Source: Arthrobacter sp. zg-Y844
GTDB lineage: Bacteria; Actinomycetota; Actinomycetes; Actinomycetales; Micrococcaceae
DNA length: 64,000 nt
Direction: 5' to 3'
NCBI RefSeq assembly: GCF_024385465.1
Contig: NZ_JANFLS010000001.1
Coordinates: 930,001 to 994,000, forward strand
Below, one piece after another: positions 8,982-54,174 of this stretch. Each line of letters opens with the position of its first letter. The stretch's first letter is position 1. Below the pieces are notes generated by a model that did not search any database, was not told the DNA's origin, and worked only from the letters and a program-made list of their open reading frames with translations. The position numbers were made by a program, and so were the translations under genes.

Positions 8982-9725
8982 ATGCCTCAAAGCCACCGTA
9001 TTCTTCAACCGGCAATCGCTGTGCTGGCCGTACTGTTTCTGGGGGCTTGCGCTCCGTCAGTCCCGGATGCCGAGACTGCGGGACCGGGGCCGACCGAAAC
9101 ACAAACCGCTCCGGCTGAGTCCCCCTCGAAGGAACAGGACCTACCCCAACCGGCGGTCTCCACACCCCGGGTTTCGACGTACGTTACCCCCGACGGCATG
9201 TTCGAGTTCGATTACCCCTCCGAATGGTCAGTGGTCTCCAATCCCGCCTCGGGCCCGAACGAAGTGTCCACGTCCCTCATCGTGCAGGATGCGCAAGGAA
9301 GGCAGATGGCTGCTTTTGTCGCAGGTTTTCCAGCAGTCAATGACTCGGTGGTCGCCGGGCCTGTCGCACCTGTTCCGCTCGAATATCAGAAAATCCCGGG
9401 TGAGCAGATTGCCCCAACCCATGAAGGGACGGCAATCGCTTATCACTATGAAACAAGGTTCAACCCGGTCCGTGGCGAAGTGGGTGCTGAAATGAGCATC
9501 AATACTTTCAAGTCAGACTTTCCGATCTCGTCCTCCCTGCCCGGCTTCAATATCGACTCAACAACCGGCGCATCCTTCTCTCGGTGGATTAGCCCTTCAG
9601 AGGACCTTCCTGATATCGATCCGAGCCTCAAAGCTACCGGGAACAGCAGCTTTTTCGAGGCGTATCAGCGCACTGCTGAGTATCAAGCCGTCAAAGAAAT
9701 GATGATCTCGCTCCGACGAACCTAG
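8982..9725 (+). CDS. Putative lipoprotein of unknown function
   Basis: A 247-residue exported lipoprotein. Residues 1-23 form a signal peptide with lipobox LGAC, then a Pro/Thr/Glu-rich linker (about 25-60), then a soluble domain opening with YVTPDGMFEFDYPSEWSVVS, a start shared by PsbP-like or DUF1795-like domains. I do not recognise it further. AGGGGA lies 11 bases before the ATG; a TTG at 8973 in frame is only 2 bases from the same box and is less likely. It converges with the tetR gene, their ends overlapping by 4 bases. Its base composition is lower in GC than its neighbours, which could mean acquisition. Confidence 0.75.
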   Translation: MPQSHRILQPAIAVLAVLFLGACAPSVPDAETAGPGPTETQTAPAESPSKEQDLPQPAVSTPRVSTYVTPDGMFEFDYPSEWSVVSNPASGPNEVSTSLIVQDAQGRQMAAFVAGFPAVNDSVVAGPVAPVPLEYQKIPGEQIAPTHEGTAIAYHYETRFNPVRGEVGAEMSINTFKSDFPISSSLPGFNIDSTTGASFSRWISPSEDLPDIDPSLKATGNSSFFEAYQRTAEYQAVKEMMISLRRT

Positions 9726-10423
9726 CCGTCGCGCCAGGAGCCCCGCAGGGTTTCGATGCCGTCCAACAGCACGTCGAGCCCGACGTTGAACTCGTCGTCG
9801 TAGTCGTAGCCTTGCTTCGCCAGCTCGCCCACCACTTCGAGCAGGTACGGATACCGGGCCGCAACCTCCGCCGATTCCCCGTTGAGGGTGTCGGCGGCGG
9901 CCTCGGCCGACTCCTCCGGGGTTTCGAAGGACAGCGTCTTCTGCTGCAGGGCGAAGCCGTACACGTAGGCATCCAGCAGGCTCATGACGTGGACTGCGGC
10001 GCGGAACGTGAATCCGCTCTGCCGCAGGCAGCCCAGCATCGCGTTGTGCTGGCGCAGGCTCTCCGGCCCCGGCCGGCCGGCCGCTTCCATCCGCCCCACC
10101 GCCCAGCGGTGCGTGACCAATGCGGCCCAGAGGGAGGCGGCGCGATCACGCACGGCCTGTTTCCAGCCGCGCGCACTATCCGGTTCCGTGACCTCGGCCC
10201 AGACCAGGTCCACCATGCCCTCAAGCAGTTCCTGTTTGTTGGCCACGTGCTTGTACAGCGCCATGGGAACCACGCCGAGTTCGTCTGCCAGCGTGCGCAT
10301 GGTGAAGCCGTCGGTGCCCACCTGGTCAGCCAGTTCGACGCCGGCGCGCAGCACGGCGTCCCGGTTCAGGCGCGGACGCCGCGCGGACGGTTCCTGCTGC
10401 CGTGCCTTGGATACCTGTCCCAC
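9722..10423 (-). CDS. TetR family repressor (TetR_C type)
   Basis: A 233-residue one-domain repressor. The N-terminal HTH is seen as RDAVLRAGVELADQVGTDGF-TMRTLADELGVVPMALYKHV, followed by a ligand-binding C-terminal half of the tetracycline-repressor C type (LLEGMVDLVWAEV, SLWAALVTHRWAVGRME). I place the start at the GTG at 10423, which has GGAAGG 7 bases upstream; an ATG at 10468 lies inside one of the operator palindromes and would add 15 unconserved residues. It diverges from the DUF4386 gene, which it most likely represses together with itself through the two palindromes at 10459-10505. Confidence 0.88.
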   Translation of the reverse strand: MGQVSKARQQEPSARRPRLNRDAVLRAGVELADQVGTDGFTMRTLADELGVVPMALYKHVANKQELLEGMVDLVWAEVTEPDSARGWKQAVRDRAASLWAALVTHRWAVGRMEAAGRPGPESLRQHNAMLGCLRQSGFTFRAAVHVMSLLDAYVYGFALQQKTLSFETPEESAEAAADTLNGESAEVAARYPYLLEVVGELAKQGYDYDDEFNVGLDVLLDGIETLRGSWRDG

Positions 10424-10458
10424 AGGGCCGCCTTCCCGGAAATCGATGCTTGACAGAG

Positions 10459-10505
10459 TGTACGACATACACCTAAGTTCATCGCATCCGGTGTACGTCG
10501 TACAC
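10459..10505. promoter_or_regulatory. Twin TetR operators
   Basis: GTGTACG-T-CGTACAC (10491-10505) is a perfect palindrome and GTGTACG-A-CATACAC (10459-10473) differs at one position in the right arm. They are 32 bases apart, about three helical turns, in the gap between the divergent tetR and DUF4386 genes. Confidence 0.8.
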
Positions 10506-10525
10506 CTTTGGCCTACAGGAGCGTC

Positions 10526-11242
10526 ATGCAGACCTCTAACCGCACGGCCCGGACCGCCGGGATCCTCTTCCTCCTCACCTTCGCCTCCGCCATCGCCGGG
10601 GCCGCACTGTACGCACCGCTGCTCACCGACCCCAACTACCTCGCCGGACCCGGCGCCGACACCCGGATCCTGCTCGGCGCTGTCTGCGAACTGGCGCTGA
10701 TCGTGACCAACATCGGGACCGCCGTCGTGCTGTTTCCCGTGCTGCGGCGCTACAGCGAGACTGCCGCTGTCGGCTATGTTGCGGCCCGGATCATGGAGTG
10801 CGCGCTTATTGCCTTCGGGATTCTCAGCGTGCTCACCGTGGTGACGCTGCGGCAGACTGGGGGTGCCGACGCCGGGCAATACCTGCCCGTGGCGCGGGCA
10901 CTGGTAACGGTGCATGACTGGACGTTCCTGCTCGGCCCGGGGTTCGTGGTGGGTATCGGCAACGGCCTGCTGCTCGGGTTCCTGATGTACCGATCGCATC
11001 TGGTGCCGCGGCCGATGGCACTGTTCGGCCTGGTCGGCGGTCCGCTGATGTCGCTGTCCGGTATTGCCGTGCTTTTCGGCGCCTACGAACAGTCTTCGGT
11101 TCCCTCCGCGCTGGCCACGCTCCCGGAGATCATCTGGGAGGCGTCGCTGGGGATCTACCTGACGGTCGTCGGTTTCCGACGGCCTCGGGAGACCGCCGCG
11201 GACCTGGCGGCCGACGTCGACAGCAGGCAGCAGGCGGCGTAG
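10526..11242 (+). CDS. DUF4386 family membrane protein
   Basis: A 238-residue integral membrane protein with six or so hydrophobic segments, starting at about 10-30 (TAGILFLLTFASAIAGAAL). Conserved polar residues include RILLGAVCE in segment two and RIMECALIAFG in segment three, the pattern of DUF4386. The function of the family is unknown. The ATG has AGGAG 4 bases upstream. The divergent TetR gene and its two operators suggest that expression is induced by a ligand, so an efflux or membrane-stress role is plausible but unproven. Confidence 0.82.
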   Translation: MQTSNRTARTAGILFLLTFASAIAGAALYAPLLTDPNYLAGPGADTRILLGAVCELALIVTNIGTAVVLFPVLRRYSETAAVGYVAARIMECALIAFGILSVLTVVTLRQTGGADAGQYLPVARALVTVHDWTFLLGPGFVVGIGNGLLLGFLMYRSHLVPRPMALFGLVGGPLMSLSGIAVLFGAYEQSSVPSALATLPEIIWEASLGIYLTVVGFRRPRETAADLAADVDSRQQAA

Positions 11243-11325
11243 ATTCCCGCAGGAACGGAATCACCCTCAGACGGGGGCCGCCCCGAGCCCGACGGAACCG
11301 GACCATTGATGATGAGGAGACACGC

Positions 11326-45842: not shown

Positions 45843-47609
45843 ATGTCCGTTTCCCCTGCCCCGCAGGGCGCCGCACCCACAACCCGAGCCGAGGTGCGGG
45901 CTGAAGCAAAACGCAAGCACCGTGCCGTTCTCCAGGCCCTGACCGGCCTGCTGCTGGGCATGTTCGTCTCGATGCTGGCGAATACGGTGGTGAGCACCTC
46001 GCTGCCGGTGATCATCTCGGACCTCGACGGCGACCAGGCCGCCTTCACCTGGGTGGTCACCGCCACCCTGCTGGCCACCGCGGTTTCGACCCCGATCTGG
46101 GGCAAGCTCGCAGACCTGCTCAACCGCAAGGTCCTGGTCCAGCTGGCCCTGATCATCTTCATTGTCGCCAGCGCCGCGGCAGGTTTCGCGCATAACACCG
46201 ACTGGCTGATCGCCATGCGCGTGGTGCAGGGCATCGGCGCCGGCGGCCTCGGCGCGCTGACCCAGATTGTCATGGCGGACATTGTTTCGCCGCGCGAACG
46301 CGGCCGGTACATGGGCCTGTTCGGCGCCGTGATGGCCCTGTCCACGGTGGGCGGGCCGCTGATCGGCGGCGTCATCACGGACACCGTCAACTGGCGTTGG
46401 AACTTCTACGTCGCCGTGCCGCTTGCCGCCGTCGCCCTGGTGATGATCCAGAAGACCCTGCACCTGCCGCCGCTGAAGAAGCGCAAGGTGCAGATCGACT
46501 ACGCCGGCATCGTGCTGCTTTCGGCATCCGTGTCCTGCCTGCTCATCTGGGTTTCCCTGGTCGGCACCGACTTCGGCTGGGCCAGTGCGGCCACCGCATG
46601 GATGGTCGGCGGTTCACTGCTGGGCCTGGCGGCGTTCGTGGCCGTGGAACTGAAGGCCCCGGAGCCGCTGATCCCGCTGACCCTGTTCCGCAACCGGACC
46701 TTCACCTTCGCAGTGATCGGCTCCCTCGCCGTCGGCGTCGCCATGTTCGGCACCACCGTGTTCCTATCCCAGTACATGCAGCTGGCCCGCGGCGCATCCG
46801 CGACCATGTCCGGGCTGATGACCATCCCGATGATGGCAGGCCTGCTGATCATCTCCACCATCGTGGGCCGGATGATCACCAAGAGCGGCAAATGGAAGGC
46901 CTACGTGGTGGTCGGTTCCGTGCTGCTGACGGCGGGCCTGGTCCTCATGGGCACCATCGAATATGACACGAACTTCGGGCTGGTTTCCCTGTACATGTTC
47001 CTGCTCGGCGCCGGCGTGGGCATGGTGATGCAGAACCTGGTGCTTGTGGTGCAGAACGACGTTTCCACCCGGGATCTCGGCGTCGCCAGCTCCAGCATCA
47101 ACTTCTTCCGCACCATCGGCGGCACCGTCGGAGTTTCCGCGCTGGGCGCGGTGCTGGCCACCCAGGTGACGGACCGTCTGGCCGAGAAGCAGGGCGAGCT
47201 GATGGCCGCCATCGGCGCGCTGGGCGAGGAGGGCAAGGCGGTCGCCGCGTCGCTGGCCTCCGGCAGCATCCCGAATGTGAAAGCGCTGCCCGAATCCGTG
47301 CGCCTCATTGTGGAATCCGTGTACGGCTCCTCGGTGGCGCACATCTTCATGATCGCCGCCCCGCTGGGGATCCTGACCCTGCTGGCGGTGCTCTTCCTGC
47401 CGAACCTGCCGCTGGGCAGCCTGACCCGGCACGAGAAGATGCAGGCCGAAGAAGCTGCTGCGGCGTCCGGCAAGGACTCCGGGGATAAGTCCGCGAAGGA
47501 CTCCGGGACCACTGCAGAAACGGTAGCCGCCGTGTCCGAAGAGGCAGCCGGGCAGGATCCGGACGTAGCGCCCGGAAAGGATGTTCCGGCCGGGAAGAAC
47601 AACGCATAG
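45843..47609 (+). CDS. DHA2 family MFS multidrug exporter
   Basis: A 588-residue proton-driven drug exporter with 14 hydrophobic segments, like EmrB, QacA and LfrA. Motif A-like ATPIWGKLADLLNRK lies near 82-96 and the antiporter motif C-like region is GAVMALSTVGGPLIGGVITD near 161-180. The C-terminus is a 60-residue Lys/Asp/Glu/Ala-rich tail that is likely disordered. GGAG lies 8 bases before the ATG. The MarR gene follows after a single base and a perfect palindrome precedes it, so the pair is likely autoregulated by drugs. Confidence 0.93.
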   Translation: MSVSPAPQGAAPTTRAEVRAEAKRKHRAVLQALTGLLLGMFVSMLANTVVSTSLPVIISDLDGDQAAFTWVVTATLLATAVSTPIWGKLADLLNRKVLVQLALIIFIVASAAAGFAHNTDWLIAMRVVQGIGAGGLGALTQIVMADIVSPRERGRYMGLFGAVMALSTVGGPLIGGVITDTVNWRWNFYVAVPLAAVALVMIQKTLHLPPLKKRKVQIDYAGIVLLSASVSCLLIWVSLVGTDFGWASAATAWMVGGSLLGLAAFVAVELKAPEPLIPLTLFRNRTFTFAVIGSLAVGVAMFGTTVFLSQYMQLARGASATMSGLMTIPMMAGLLIISTIVGRMITKSGKWKAYVVVGSVLLTAGLVLMGTIEYDTNFGLVSLYMFLLGAGVGMVMQNLVLVVQNDVSTRDLGVASSSINFFRTIGGTVGVSALGAVLATQVTDRLAEKQGELMAAIGALGEEGKAVAASLASGSIPNVKALPESVRLIVESVYGSSVAHIFMIAAPLGILTLLAVLFLPNLPLGSLTRHEKMQAEEAAAASGKDSGDKSAKDSGTTAETVAAVSEEAAGQDPDVAPGKDVPAGKNNA

Positions 47610-47610
47610 G

Positions 47611-48075
47611 GTGACGACGTCGGCAGCCGGGGACGCTGACAACATCACCTTCGAGTCCGCCGTCCTGGAAGTGGAGCGCGAGTTTTCGGTGATGCTTGCC
47701 GCCGCTCGGGGGACGTTCAAGGACGCCGCCTCAGCGGTTCATCCGGGCGTGCAGCCGCTGGGGTTCACGGTGCTGATGACCCTGTACCGCGGCGGCGAAT
47801 GTCCGCAGGGCAGCGTGGCCGAGGCCCTTCAGGTGGACAAGGCCCTGCTCAGCCGGACCGTGTCACAGCTGGAAACCCTGGGCCTGGTGGTCCGCCGGGC
47901 GAACCCTTCCGACGGGCGGGTCCAGCTGCTGGACCTGACGCCGGAAGGCCGGGCCCGTTTCGAGAATGCCCACTCGGCGAAGCGGGCCCTCCTGCGGGAC
48001 CGGCTCGGGAGCTGGACTTCGTCCGAGCTGCAGAACCTTACCGACCTGCTGAAGAAGCTTAACGAGCGGGACTGA
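47611..48075 (+). CDS. MarR family transcriptional regulator
   Basis: A 154-residue winged-HTH repressor. The DNA helices are seen as QGSVAEALQVDKALLSRTVS and the wing as VRRANPSDGRVQLLDLTPEG. It starts with a GTG one base after the MFS stop, so it is translationally coupled to the exporter. It likely binds GTTGATTTAAATCAAC before the exporter gene. Its 3' end overlaps the end of the opposite histidine kinase gene by 17 bases. Confidence 0.9.
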   Translation: MTTSAAGDADNITFESAVLEVEREFSVMLAAARGTFKDAASAVHPGVQPLGFTVLMTLYRGGECPQGSVAEALQVDKALLSRTVSQLETLGLVVRRANPSDGRVQLLDLTPEGRARFENAHSAKRALLRDRLGSWTSSELQNLTDLLKKLNERD

Positions 48076-49690
48076 TTCCGGCCGCGGTTTCCGCGGCCAG
48101 GGGCAGGGGCAGGGACACCGTGAACTCGCTTCCCTGCCCCGGACTGCTGACGAAGCTCAGCTTTCCTCCGTGCGATTCCACAATGTTCTTGGTGATCACC
48201 AGGCCCAGCCCGACCCCGGGCACCGCCGAGGCGACAGCACGGCGGGACCGGAAGAACTTGGTGAATACCTTTTCCTGTTCTGCTTCGCTCATTCCGATCC
48301 CGGTGTCTGCCACGGAAAGGCGGACCGCGTGGTCGTCCTGCCCGAGGCGGATTGTCACCGTTCCCCCGTCCGGGGAGTACTTCACGGCGTTGGACAGCAG
48401 ATTATCGACCACCTGGGCCAGGCGCTGCGGATCCGCATCAGCCGTCAGCGAGGCCGGAATCTCCGACACCAGGTCCACCCGTCCCGCAGTTGCCTTCGGG
48501 GATACCGACACCACGCCTGCCCGCACGATTTCGGCCAGGTCCACCGGCCGGCGGTCCATTTTGGTGGCTCCGGACGCTACGGACAGCAGATCGGACACCA
48601 GCGCCAACAGTCGTTCCGAGTTGCGCAGCGCAACATTCAGCGCTGAGGTCACCACCGGGGACAGTCCCTCCTCGTCCAGTGCGAGGTCAAGGTAACCCAT
48701 GATCGACGTCAGCGGGGTCCGCAGTTCGTGGGACACACTCGCCACGAATTCCTCCTGGGCCGCGACGGCATGGACCAACCGGCTGACATCGCTGTAGACG
48801 ATCACCGATCCGGAAACCGCTCCTTCCGCCCTGATGGGCCGGGCGGAGACATTGAGGGCCATCTGGTTTCCACGGTCCAAGGACCCGAACCATACCAACC
48901 GGTTCGAGAAGGACTCACCCGCGACGGCCCGCCTCACCGGACTCTCGACATCGGACAGGGGCGTGACGCGGTCCGGACCGAAAATCGGCCGGTCCCCGCC
49001 CGGGGTGACATCCGTTTGCACCCTGTTCCAGGCGGACTGGAGGTGGGCGTTTGTCAGCATGGTCCTGCCCTGCGCATCCACCACAAGCAGGCCGACGTCG
49101 ATCGTGTTGAGCACCGTGTCCAGTAAGGCTTCGCGCTCCCTGCTCTTCGCCAGATTCGCCTGCAGGACGCGGTCTTTCTCCTCCAGTGCCTTCTGCTTTT
49201 CCCGGGTTTCTTCTTCCGCTGCGGCCCGCGCTGCTTCAGCCGCCTCGGCTTTGCGCAGGGCAGCCACCAGCTCCCGCTCGTAGAGCCTGCGTTCGGAGGC
49301 GTTAAAGACGGCGATCCGGTCCACGCCGGCCCCGTCTCGGGCGTCTTTTTCCTCCGAGCGCACGCCGGAGAGGAGAACCGGAATCAGGTCCCCGTCTGCG
49401 GATACCAGCTCCGCCGCCATTTCGTTGAAGCATCCCGCCACGGCCAGCTGCGGTACGGCGTAGGAGGTGAAGACCACCTGGTCTGCCAACGGCATCAGGT
49501 CAATGATGTTGCCTCCGAGCAGCCCCTCCCGGGAATGCCCGGTCCAGGAGGCCAGCGTCCGGTTGGCATCCAGGATCGTTCCGTCCGTGGTGAGGACGAG
49601 GTACCCGGAAGCCGCCGCGTGGAAGTGCTCCTCGTACACGCCGTCGCCGGCCTTCGGACCATCCGCCGCTGCGCTGGTCGCGCCGGTCAT
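48059..49690 (-). CDS. PAS domain sensor histidine kinase
   Basis: A 543-residue soluble kinase with no membrane segment. A PAS domain lies at about 18-125 (EEHFHAAASGYLVLTTDGTI), a coiled coil at 130-185 (Ala/Glu/Arg-rich), and a second PAS at about 185-295 (LLDTVLNTIDVGLLVVDAQG). HisKA follows with the phospho-His in SVSHELRTPLTSIMGYLDLA near 315, then HATPase with VVDNLLSNAVKYSPDGG and ADTGIGMSE. Its ATG overlaps the stop of the RsbQ-like gene (ATGA), so the two are made together. No response regulator is in the window. The 17-bp overlap with the MarR gene end is unusual but convergent. Confidence 0.93.
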   Translation of the reverse strand: MTGATSAAADGPKAGDGVYEEHFHAAASGYLVLTTDGTILDANRTLASWTGHSREGLLGGNIIDLMPLADQVVFTSYAVPQLAVAGCFNEMAAELVSADGDLIPVLLSGVRSEEKDARDGAGVDRIAVFNASERRLYERELVAALRKAEAAEAARAAAEEETREKQKALEEKDRVLQANLAKSREREALLDTVLNTIDVGLLVVDAQGRTMLTNAHLQSAWNRVQTDVTPGGDRPIFGPDRVTPLSDVESPVRRAVAGESFSNRLVWFGSLDRGNQMALNVSARPIRAEGAVSGSVIVYSDVSRLVHAVAAQEEFVASVSHELRTPLTSIMGYLDLALDEEGLSPVVTSALNVALRNSERLLALVSDLLSVASGATKMDRRPVDLAEIVRAGVVSVSPKATAGRVDLVSEIPASLTADADPQRLAQVVDNLLSNAVKYSPDGGTVTIRLGQDDHAVRLSVADTGIGMSEAEQEKVFTKFFRSRRAVASAVPGVGLGLVITKNIVESHGGKLSFVSSPGQGSEFTVSLPLPLAAETAAGISPAR

Positions 49691-50499
49691 GCCTGAACCG
49701 TCGGCAGGTACTGGAGGATGGCCTCGGCCGTCTCTCGGGGGTTGATGATGTGCGGCATGTTGCCGCGCGTTTCCAGTTCCACAAGCGTGCTGCCGGGGAG
49801 ATGCCGGTGCAGGTACAACGACGCCGTTTCCGGGGTCAGCGGGTCGGCCCGCGACTGCAGCACCAGGGTCGGAACAGATACCAGGGGCAGCAGGTGCCGG
49901 ATGTCCGTGGCAAAGCTCATTCGCAGGAAGTCCCGCACGTACTCCGGATGCAACCGGCACAGCCGGTCCGCCAATATGTCATTGATCTCCGGGCCTGCGT
50001 CCGCTCCCGCTATGCCCGCGCTCATCGTCCTCGCCCAGAGGGGGTAGTTGGCCTCCACCGCATCAATAACCTTCTGGATGTCGCCGGGGGCGAATCCACC
50101 CGAATAGCCCTCGTCGTTGACGTAGCAGGGCGAGGTGCAGAGCAGGATGAGGCGTGCAATCCGAGGGGTGCGCGCTGAGGCGGCCAGCGCCATGGTGCCG
50201 GCAATGCTGTGCCCCACGATGGTGGCGTCCTGCACATCCAGGGCATCCAGCACCTCGATGAGGTCGCCCAGATAACCTTCCAGATCAGCGTATTTTGCTG
50301 CGTTGTAAGCCTCCGGATCGGCCTCCCCGGTTCCTACATGATCAAACAGCACCACTTTGTAGGCGTCCGTGAAGAACGGCAGGATCGGGTCCCAGATCAC
50401 CTGGTCGCAGCCAAAGCCCTGGACCAGCAGCAGCACAGGGCCATCGGGGCGTCCAAGCACTCGGACGTTGTTGCGCTGGATTACTGCCTGGGCATTCAT
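49687..50499 (-). CDS. RsbQ-like alpha/beta hydrolase, catalytic His replaced by Asn
   Basis: A 270-residue protein closely like Bacillus RsbQ, the partner of the PAS phosphatase RsbP in energy-stress signalling, and a relative of the plant receptors D14 and KAI2. It shares LVQGFGCDQVIWD, VLFDHVGTGEADPEAYNAA, GHSIAG with Ser98, the lid SPCYVNDEGYSGGF and the Asp in LQSRADPLTP. In RsbQ the His of the triad is in RGHCPH; here the codon is AAC, giving RGNMPH. The hydrolase is therefore probably inactive or uses another His, and may only bind a ligand. Its stop overlaps the kinase start. The ATG has AGGTGCAGG right before it. Confidence 0.88.
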   Translation of the reverse strand: MNAQAVIQRNNVRVLGRPDGPVLLLVQGFGCDQVIWDPILPFFTDAYKVVLFDHVGTGEADPEAYNAAKYADLEGYLGDLIEVLDALDVQDATIVGHSIAGTMALAASARTPRIARLILLCTSPCYVNDEGYSGGFAPGDIQKVIDAVEANYPLWARTMSAGIAGADAGPEINDILADRLCRLHPEYVRDFLRMSFATDIRHLLPLVSVPTLVLQSRADPLTPETASLYLHRHLPGSTLVELETRGNMPHIINPRETAEAILQYLPTVQA

Positions 50500-53360: not shown

Positions 53361-53726
53361 CTAAGCCTGGCAGAGGCAGAACGGGTGACCCGCCGGATCC
53401 AGGAACACGCGGAAGGTCCTGCCCAGCTGGCGCTCATGTTTAGTTGCTCCAAGCGCGAGGACCGCCGCTTCCCCTTCGTCCAGATCGTCCACATCGACAT
53501 CGATATGCATCTGCTGGGGAACATCCTGGCCCGGCCAGGCCGGCGGCGTGTAGTTTTCCACCCGCTGGAAAGCGAAGCGCTGGCCGGTGACGTCGGAGAT
53601 TTCGGTCCAGTCGCCGTCGTACCCGTCCAGGTCCACCTTCCAGTCCAGGAGGGCGCCGTAGAAGAGGGCGAGTGCCTCGGGGTCCGGGCAGTCGATAACC
53701 GTGCTGGGTACTCGTGCAATAGCCAT
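53361..53726 (-). CDS. VOC family protein, tandem copy 1
   Basis: A 121-residue glyoxalase/bleomycin-resistance-fold protein. VPSTVIDCPDPEALALFYGA opens the domain, and MHIDVDVDDLDEGEAAVLAL and RVFLDPAGHPFCLCQA form the second half. By eye it is about 85% identical to the next gene, from which it differs by a two-residue insertion (DGYDGDW against DDDGW) and scattered changes. Such small proteins sequester or modify antibiotics or act as isomerases; the role here is unknown. It converges on the ABC exporter gene. Confidence 0.9.
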   Translation of the reverse strand: MAIARVPSTVIDCPDPEALALFYGALLDWKVDLDGYDGDWTEISDVTGQRFAFQRVENYTPPAWPGQDVPQQMHIDVDVDDLDEGEAAVLALGATKHERQLGRTFRVFLDPAGHPFCLCQA

Positions 53727-53814: not shown

Positions 53815-54174
53815 CTAGCCGACGCAGAGGCAGAACGGATGGCCGGCCGGGTCAAGGAACACCCGGAAGGTCTCCCCCGGCTGGTACTCGTGCTTGGTGG
53901 CGCCAAGGGCGAGGACAGCGGCTTCCGCCTCATCCAGGTCGTCCACATCGACGTCGATATGCATCTGCTGGGGAACATCCTGGCCGGGCCAGGCCGGCGG
54001 CGTGTAGTCCTCCACCCGCTGGAAGGCGAAGCGCTGGCCGGTGACGTCGGTGATGTCCGCCCAGCCGTCGTCGTCCACACCCACCTTCCAGTCCAGGAGG
54101 GTGCCGTAGAAGGTGGCGAGTGCCTCGGGATCCGGGCAGTCGATAACAGTGTTGGGAACGCGTGCGATAGCCAT
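53815..54174 (-). CDS. VOC family protein, tandem copy 2
   Basis: A 119-residue paralogue of the gene 88 bases downstream, with the same motifs (CPDPEALATFYGTLLDWKV, MHIDVDVDDLDEAEAAVLAL, FRVFLDPAGHPFCLCVG). The shared core FAFQRVE-YTPPAWPGQDVPQQ carries the conserved metal-side residues. Because it has the same upstream sequence as copy 1, both may be expressed in the same way. The gene is probably functional, since no stops or frameshifts are seen. Confidence 0.9.
   Translation of the reverse strand: MAIARVPNTVIDCPDPEALATFYGTLLDWKVGVDDDGWADITDVTGQRFAFQRVEDYTPPAWPGQDVPQQMHIDVDVDDLDEAEAAVLALGATKHEYQPGETFRVFLDPAGHPFCLCVG

Follow-up and report, generated by a model that had tools for sequence, protein, structure and literature searches.

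A derived RsbQ-histidine kinase pair of Arthrobacter that lacks the catalytic histidine and may sense without hydrolysis

RsbQ-PAS modules, in which an RsbQ homologue is encoded immediately upstream of a protein with an RsbP-type PAS as its most N-terminal domain, have been known since 2011, when 45 pairs with phosphatase, kinase or diguanylate cyclase outputs were described, the kinase outputs in Gram-negative bacteria (Nadezhdin, Brody and Price 2011, PMC3183031). A coiled-coil linker leads to the output in 36 of the 45 published pairs. Two models were considered there: in Model 1 RsbQ generates a product that the PAS domain receives, and in Model 2 the sensing is done by RsbQ itself, which makes contact with the PAS domain. 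We analysed a pair of this kind, an RsbQ-like gene followed by a histidine kinase gene, in a stretch of 64,000 nt from Arthrobacter sp. zg-Y844 (NZ_JANFLS010000001.1, 930,001-994,000; hereafter the window, whose positions are used below and whose own genome is labelled G000). A sequence-only reading of this stretch had presented the kinase in place of a phosphatase as a new arrangement. That is not the case: the RsbQ-PAS module type is already known, and the kinase pairing was published in 2011. Neither for an actinobacterial kinase output nor for a clade of RsbQ-like proteins lacking the catalytic His did we find a prior report among the papers listed in searches of the open-licence literature. 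The stress signal invoked by the same reading has no support at the locus, and even for the published modules the energy-stress assignment is itself called an assumption (PMC3183031).

Both hallmarks of the module are present here: the RsbQ homologue lies immediately upstream, and an RsbP-type PAS is the most N-terminal domain of the kinase. The two minus-strand genes occupy the whole interval 48059-50499, and their active-site and overlap features are as follows.

49687..50499, minus strand: RsbQ-like alpha/beta-hydrolase-fold gene (270 aa, ATG start; Pfam Abhydrolase_1; best Protein Data Bank chain 1wom)
48059..49690, minus strand: soluble PAS-PAS-HisKA-HATPase_c histidine kinase gene (543 aa; Pfam)
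49687..49690, minus strand: ATGA, the kinase start over the RsbQ-like stop (read from the sequence; overlap maintained in the clade)
50419..50421, minus strand: Gln27 codon CAG, the clade-wide substitute for the His of the HGFGCDQ motif (Gln in 16/16 clade rows, His in 25/25 canonical rows of the genus)
50206..50208, minus strand: Ser98 codon, equivalent of the catalytic nucleophile, retained (alignment, motif check)
49843..49845, minus strand: Asp219 codon, equivalent of the catalytic acid, retained (alignment, motif check)
49759..49761, minus strand: Asn247 codon AAC, replacing the catalytic His (alignment, motif check)

The closest solved relative of the RsbQ-like protein was Bacillus subtilis RsbQ (1wom; E-value 1.9e-60, residues 5-266), and Arabidopsis D14 (AtD14) matched with an E-value of 1.1e-54; RsbQ/D14-type sequence was present over the full length of the protein (residues 5-266). 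Among the best 25 of 27 and 25 of 84 NCBIfam families for the two proteins of the pair, none matched above its cut-off. The triad of B. subtilis RsbQ is Ser96, Asp219 and His247 (PMC3183031). Because the aligned residues in the window protein are Ser98, Asp219 and Asn247, we do not class it as a catalytic RsbQ. The sequence-only reading had called it the same sensor as that of Bacillus; this is not quite right, because the catalytic His247 of RsbQ is Asn here and the protein falls in a paralogous clade. That reading also suggested that the PAS domain could receive the product of hydrolysis, which is unlikely because the catalytic His is lost. Two other histidines were considered as rescue residues for catalysis and rejected: the sole clade-enriched His, at position 231, has a His counterpart in B. 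subtilis RsbQ, and the canonical copies share His250.

RsbQ-like proteins (E-value up to 1e-30) were found in 28 of the 29 genomes of the genus. Our genus analysis comprised 43 RsbQ-like genes, counting the split gene of genome G022 once and leaving out the two copies of G020, which is of the window's species. A PAS-PAS-kinase lay directly downstream of 42 of these 43 genes, the exception being L066 in G014; the neighbourhood survey called for by the sequence-only reading thus found the pair conserved in relatives, where a lack of conservation would have counted as its refutation. The wider set took in all 19 matches in the family outside the genus, 60 of 74 matches in the class, and the best 80 of 576 relatives in named genomes. 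The triad could be tabulated for 191 distinct sequences: 173 read Ser-Asp-His, nine Ser-Asp-Asn, three Ser-Asp-Ser, one Ser-Asp-Thr and two Thr-Asp-Asn. The remainder were the two halves of the frameshifted G022 gene (one with the Thr, the other with the Asp and Asn) and L194, which is not assessable because its alignment ends short of the His. All of the His-less sequences grouped with the window protein. Residue 247 was Asn, Ser or Thr in 15 of the 16 intact members of this clade, with His retained only in L049 of G008; Asp219 was invariant and Ser98 retained in most members, the nucleophile being Thr in three genes (L053, L054 and G022). Several members had Leu in place of Phe136 or Phe196. 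Outside the clade the triad was intact in all 172 assessable sequences, and it was kept as well in 24 of 24 more from the window's order, one of which was already in the set. The clade was found in Arthrobacter only: across the 295 genomes sampled from the family, no match outside the genus had more than 47% identity. Judged by sequence, the clade has lost the catalytic His while keeping the Asp and mostly the Ser, and its kinases are mostly intact.

The window's genome also encodes a canonical pair (G000:C1:818423-820790; L008 6406-7221 and 7229-8791), in which Ser-Asp-His is intact and the kinase begins 7 bases past the RsbQ stop. Window and canonical paralogues are 51% identical for RsbQ and 52% for the kinase. 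A candidate ATG or GTG kinase start overlapped the RsbQ stop (-4 to -14) in 17/17 clade members, including the broken copy of G022. In trees of both genes, rooted for drawing only, the 16 intact clade rows fell on one side of a branch with support of 100/100. Because both trees split off the same 16 rows, the simplest reading is that the clade of RsbQ-like-kinase pairs, found only in Arthrobacter, arose by joint duplication of both genes. Within the clade, the window kinase was 92% identical to that of L044 and the RsbQ-like proteins 75-77%, and the window was placed differently in the two trees; recombination or a faster-evolving RsbQ may possibly lie behind this discordance.

The clade is under purifying selection, less tightly than the canonical copies. 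In four close pairs, the clade RsbQ-like genes had a pooled ratio of nonsynonymous to synonymous change (pN/pS) of 0.27 and the clade kinases one of 0.20, compared with 0.13 and 0.10 for the canonical copies. All but one of the 17 RsbQ-like genes of the clade were unbroken, and all but one of its 17 kinases had complete motifs; this motif test also found 23 of 25 canonical kinases complete, with L062 and L064 missing only the G1 pattern. The clade copy was the only RsbQ found, at an E-value up to 1e-30, in G007 and G019.

The kinase of the window is an orthodox HisKA kinase, in which the H, N, G1, F and G2 boxes are all present. No hydrophobic segment was detected in it, as no Kyte-Doolittle window of 19 residues exceeded 1.6; coordinates, domains and the absence of such a segment all agree with the sequence-only reading of an RsbQ-like gene overlapping a soluble two-PAS kinase by ATGA. 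Its parts are these.

49286..49636, minus strand: PAS1, RsbP type, residues 19-135 (Pfam PAS; PAS1 profile)
48776..49108, minus strand: PAS2, residues 195-305, akin to the PAS of kinases beside an OmpR-type regulator (Pfam PAS_4; sequence comparison)
48572..48760, minus strand: HisKA dimerisation/phosphotransfer domain, residues 311-373 (Pfam)
48728..48730, minus strand: His321 codon, predicted phosphorylation site in HELRTPL (motif check)
48101..48433, minus strand: HATPase_c ATP-binding domain, residues 420-530, with N, G1, F and G2 boxes (Pfam, motif check)

A PAS1 profile built from the genus kinases scored more than 15 bits on 184 open reading frames (ORFs) directly after RsbQ and on one other (L203), itself adjoining RsbQ, in loci that were the surroundings of RsbQ genes only, which limits the control. 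On this specificity for ORFs after RsbQ we reject the view that PAS1 is unrelated to RsbP-PAS. The profile also gave 64 bits on one kinase of the window's genome without an RsbQ (L278). Against solved structures, PAS1 found nothing significant (best E-value 0.53). The DIT motif is absent at the end of PAS1, which closes with VDRIAVFNASER. The linker that follows (residues 131-192) is charged and helix-like, with a best a/d heptad hydrophobicity of 0.53 versus 0.42 overall, as calculated without a dedicated coiled-coil program. The residues that define the RsbP-PAS class are C10, L13, L48, Q53, F55, C56, Y59, E72 and P86, also P62, and Phe55 is required for RsbQ contact in B. subtilis (PMC3183031). 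Placed by spacing and not by alignment with RsbP, Gln71, Tyr77, Pro80, Glu90 and Pro104 of PAS1 fit the class, as do the hydrophobic Phe74 and Leu65/Met66; Val73 at the Phe55 position and Ser28 at Cys10 do not, and L13 could not be placed. The link to RsbP-PAS that the sequence-only reading wanted checked, and whose absence would have refuted it, therefore holds at the level of the family, where the profile is specific and the DIT motif absent, but is incomplete at the level of residues, as the Phe55 and Cys10 equivalents are unconserved.

To place these kinases among other RsbQ partners, the gene following 203 RsbQ open frames (duplicates counted) was assigned by domain content, with Pfam run on sample frames. 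PAS1-PP2C followed in 108 cases, PAS1-PAS2-kinase in 49, PAS1-GGDEF-EAL in 14, PAS1-GGDEF in six, PAS1 alone in five, PAS1-kinase in three and GGDEF-EAL in one; nothing was recognised in 17. All 49 PAS1-PAS2-kinase cases came from Arthrobacter, with the G022 kinase counted twice and six kinases repeated through named records. The three PAS1-kinase cases belonged to Rhodocytophaga (L205), Ferruginibacter (L249) and a Cytophagales metagenome-assembled genome (L273), which we take to be Bacteroidota. The other sampled actinobacteria with a recognised RsbP-type partner had GGDEF(-EAL) or PP2C outputs, and 24 further loci from the window's order (one already in the set) added no kinase partner. At one actinobacterial locus, L187 (2241-5408, plus strand), the gene after RsbQ encodes a large hybrid kinase; this has a receiver and several PAS domains, none of them recognised as RsbP-type. 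RsbQ genes with an intact triad and without a recognised adjoining PAS partner were seen at L096, L099, L100, L102, L103, L105, L206, L209, L217, L223, L227 and L259, in Pseudarthrobacter and other family genomes, some of them named Arthrobacter.

The search for a cognate response regulator, which the sequence-only reading had called for, found none beside the pair: of 16 receiver matches in the genome, none adjoined the kinase. It did yield a candidate on another contig. Besides its direct paralogue, the window kinase shares a core 49-56% identical with three kinases of its own genome. Two of these flank an OmpR-type regulator (Response_reg and Trans_reg_C; G000:C4:260694-261506); the flanking kinases (G000:C4:258914-262740) have hydrophobic N-termini and cores 49-52% identical to that of the window kinase. 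At this locus (L276 1900-6302, G000:C4) both membrane PAS kinases lie on the strand opposite to the regulator gene. The third, at L278 1727-3367 (minus strand; G000:C1:1063256-1064704), is a soluble PAS-PAS kinase. The regulator was present in 29/29 genus genomes, with relatives in 50 of 120 family genomes, and 29/29 regulator loci returned besides the window's own (L281-L309) contained an ORF that shares the PAS2 and HisKA-type core. The RsbQ-linked kinases and the C1:1063256 kinase fell together on one side of a branch versus the regulator-locus kinases (97/98), a split that does not indicate the older side. A PF07228 (PP2C) scan of the genome for an RsbP-type phosphatase gave three weak matches, the best with an E-value of 6.7e-7.

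Helix 1 of the phosphotransfer domain of the window kinase was identical at 27/27 positions to that of one C4 flanking kinase and at 22/27 to the other; the canonical RsbQ-linked kinase shared 25 of the 27 positions and the C1:1063256 kinase 22. Two comparisons count against this choice of target: the helix also shares 21/27 positions with a receiver-fused kinase (C3:85060), and 8-19/27 with five kinases near other regulators, C1:1053 having the 19. On the basis of these sequence comparisons the C4 OmpR-type regulator is the best candidate target of the window kinase, and a target shared between kinases is a prediction.

How might such a pair work? We put roughly even weight on the view that the locus encodes a derived, paralogous version of the RsbQ-PAS sensing module, with a histidine kinase as its output and the RsbQ-like protein serving as a non-hydrolytic docking or ligand-binding subunit. 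Since the catalytic residue is lost, the protein probably senses by binding and not by cutting: it would no longer hydrolyse its ligand and would still dock on PAS1. An occupied or reshaped pocket would then alter the contact with PAS1, in line with Model 2; the helical linker and PAS2 would relay this change to the kinase core; and the phosphoryl group would pass to the C4 OmpR-type regulator, which would be shared with the two membrane kinases and the canonical RsbQ-linked kinase. In plants, the hydrolase-dead AtD14 D218A still signals (PMC6331613). The further proposal, that this is a receptor of the RsbQ/D14/KAI2 type working naturally without hydrolysis in bacteria, one copy signalling by ligand binding and PAS contact alone after duplication of the pair, is tentative, and we rate it somewhat short of an even chance.

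Several observations weigh against the non-hydrolytic sensing subunit. The closest experimental analogue, AtD14 H247A, lost catalysis, failed to complement, showed no ligand-induced shift in melting temperature and bound ligand more weakly (PMC6331613); loss of the His may therefore cost binding as well as catalysis, and the plant analogy does not favour ligand binding after such a loss. Substitutions in the RsbQ triad are null in B. subtilis (PMC3183031, citing earlier work). In the clade, Val or Leu stands at the Phe55 position of RsbP-PAS, and 14 of 16 members have Ser for the class residue Cys10. Because of the lost His and the behaviour of the AtD14 mutants, the clade fits Model 2 or a purely structural partner better than Model 1. 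Such a structural partner would have lost both catalysis and ligand binding and would only support or stabilise PAS1, while the signal would come in at another point such as PAS2. The lost catalysis and weaker binding of AtD14 H247A speak for such a ligand-independent subunit, as does the permissive active site of the clade, where residue 247 can be Asn, Ser, Thr or His, the nucleophile can be Thr, and Leu replaces Phe136 or Phe196 in several members; so does the C1:1063256 kinase, which is placed with the clade kinases (93/88) although no RsbQ adjoins it, a point that also counts against sensing by the RsbQ-like protein. Asp219 is nevertheless invariant, Ser98 kept in most of the clade, and the RsbQ-like gene under purifying selection, and we consider this explanation unlikely, though deserving of real weight.

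It is quite improbable that the protein is an active enzyme of unusual mechanism, in which another residue or water acts as the base and the product still reaches PAS1 as in Model 1. The retained Asp, the mostly retained Ser and the one member with His247 would suit it, but the His is gone from the other 15 of 16 intact members, no clade-specific replacement His was found, and all four AtD14 triad mutants tested, H247A included, had drastically reduced hydrolase activity (PMC6331613); the null triad substitutions of B. subtilis point the same way. A redundant pair in the course of being lost we regard as improbable. Consistent with decay, and likewise unfavourable to a working sensor, are the weaker constraint on the clade RsbQ (pN/pS above that of the canonical copy), the long stem of the clade in the trees, the frameshift in the RsbQ-like gene of G022, and L051 (G016), where two clade pairs lie about 2.9 kb apart and the kinase at 9700-11262 (minus strand) is without N, F and G2 boxes. 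Yet pN/pS is well below 1 (binomial p for the nonsynonymous deficit about 3e-16 for the clade RsbQ-like genes and 7e-57 for the clade kinases), all but one of the RsbQ-like genes and of the kinases are whole, and two genomes have no other RsbQ copy that we found.

Two neighbouring features of the window may be recorded. A MarR-type gene, named by eye, at 47581-48075 (plus strand) converges on the kinase gene, the 3' ends overlapping by 17 bases. The small ORFs at 53361-53726 and 53815-54174 (minus strand), VOC/glyoxalase-like by eye, are 86% identical over 119 aa and represent a recent tandem duplication.

Whether signalling proceeds through a product or through a change of shape on binding has long been disputed for RsbQ, D14 and KAI2. 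The clade retained its partner kinase and several pocket residues while dropping the catalytic His, and most of its genomes also carry a canonical copy, which gives a matched pair for testing that dispute. If it is truly non-hydrolytic, it would put the model that makes RsbQ itself the sensor to the test in nature. Within actinobacteria, it also offers an RsbQ-PAS module joined to a kinase core common to membrane kinases, with a named candidate regulator.

Compared with the published kinase modules (PMC3183031), the window pair has the same RsbQ homologue directly upstream, N-terminal RsbP-type PAS, kinase output, lack of a DIT motif and helix-like linker (here judged without a coiled-coil program); the published modules are Gram-negative with a highly conserved triad, whereas this one is actinobacterial and its catalytic His is gone. 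It resembles RsbQ-RsbP of B. subtilis in the RsbQ fold, by sequence, and in the PAS class, by profile and without direct comparison with RsbP, but a kinase replaces the PP2C phosphatase, His247 has become Asn, and there are two PAS domains. The plant D14/KAI2 receptors belong, by sequence, to the same hydrolase-receptor family; there D218A of D14 separates catalysis from signalling, but the pair described here has lost the His, and AtD14 mutated at that residue failed to complement (PMC6331613); the plant partner is an F-box protein where here it is a PAS kinase. The C4 membrane kinases are alike in the PAS2-kinase core, with hydrophobic N-terminal segments instead of an RsbP-type PAS, and have no RsbQ. 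The canonical RsbQ-kinase pair of the same genome is alike in gene order and domains, but keeps its triad intact and separates its genes by a 7-base gap in place of an overlap.

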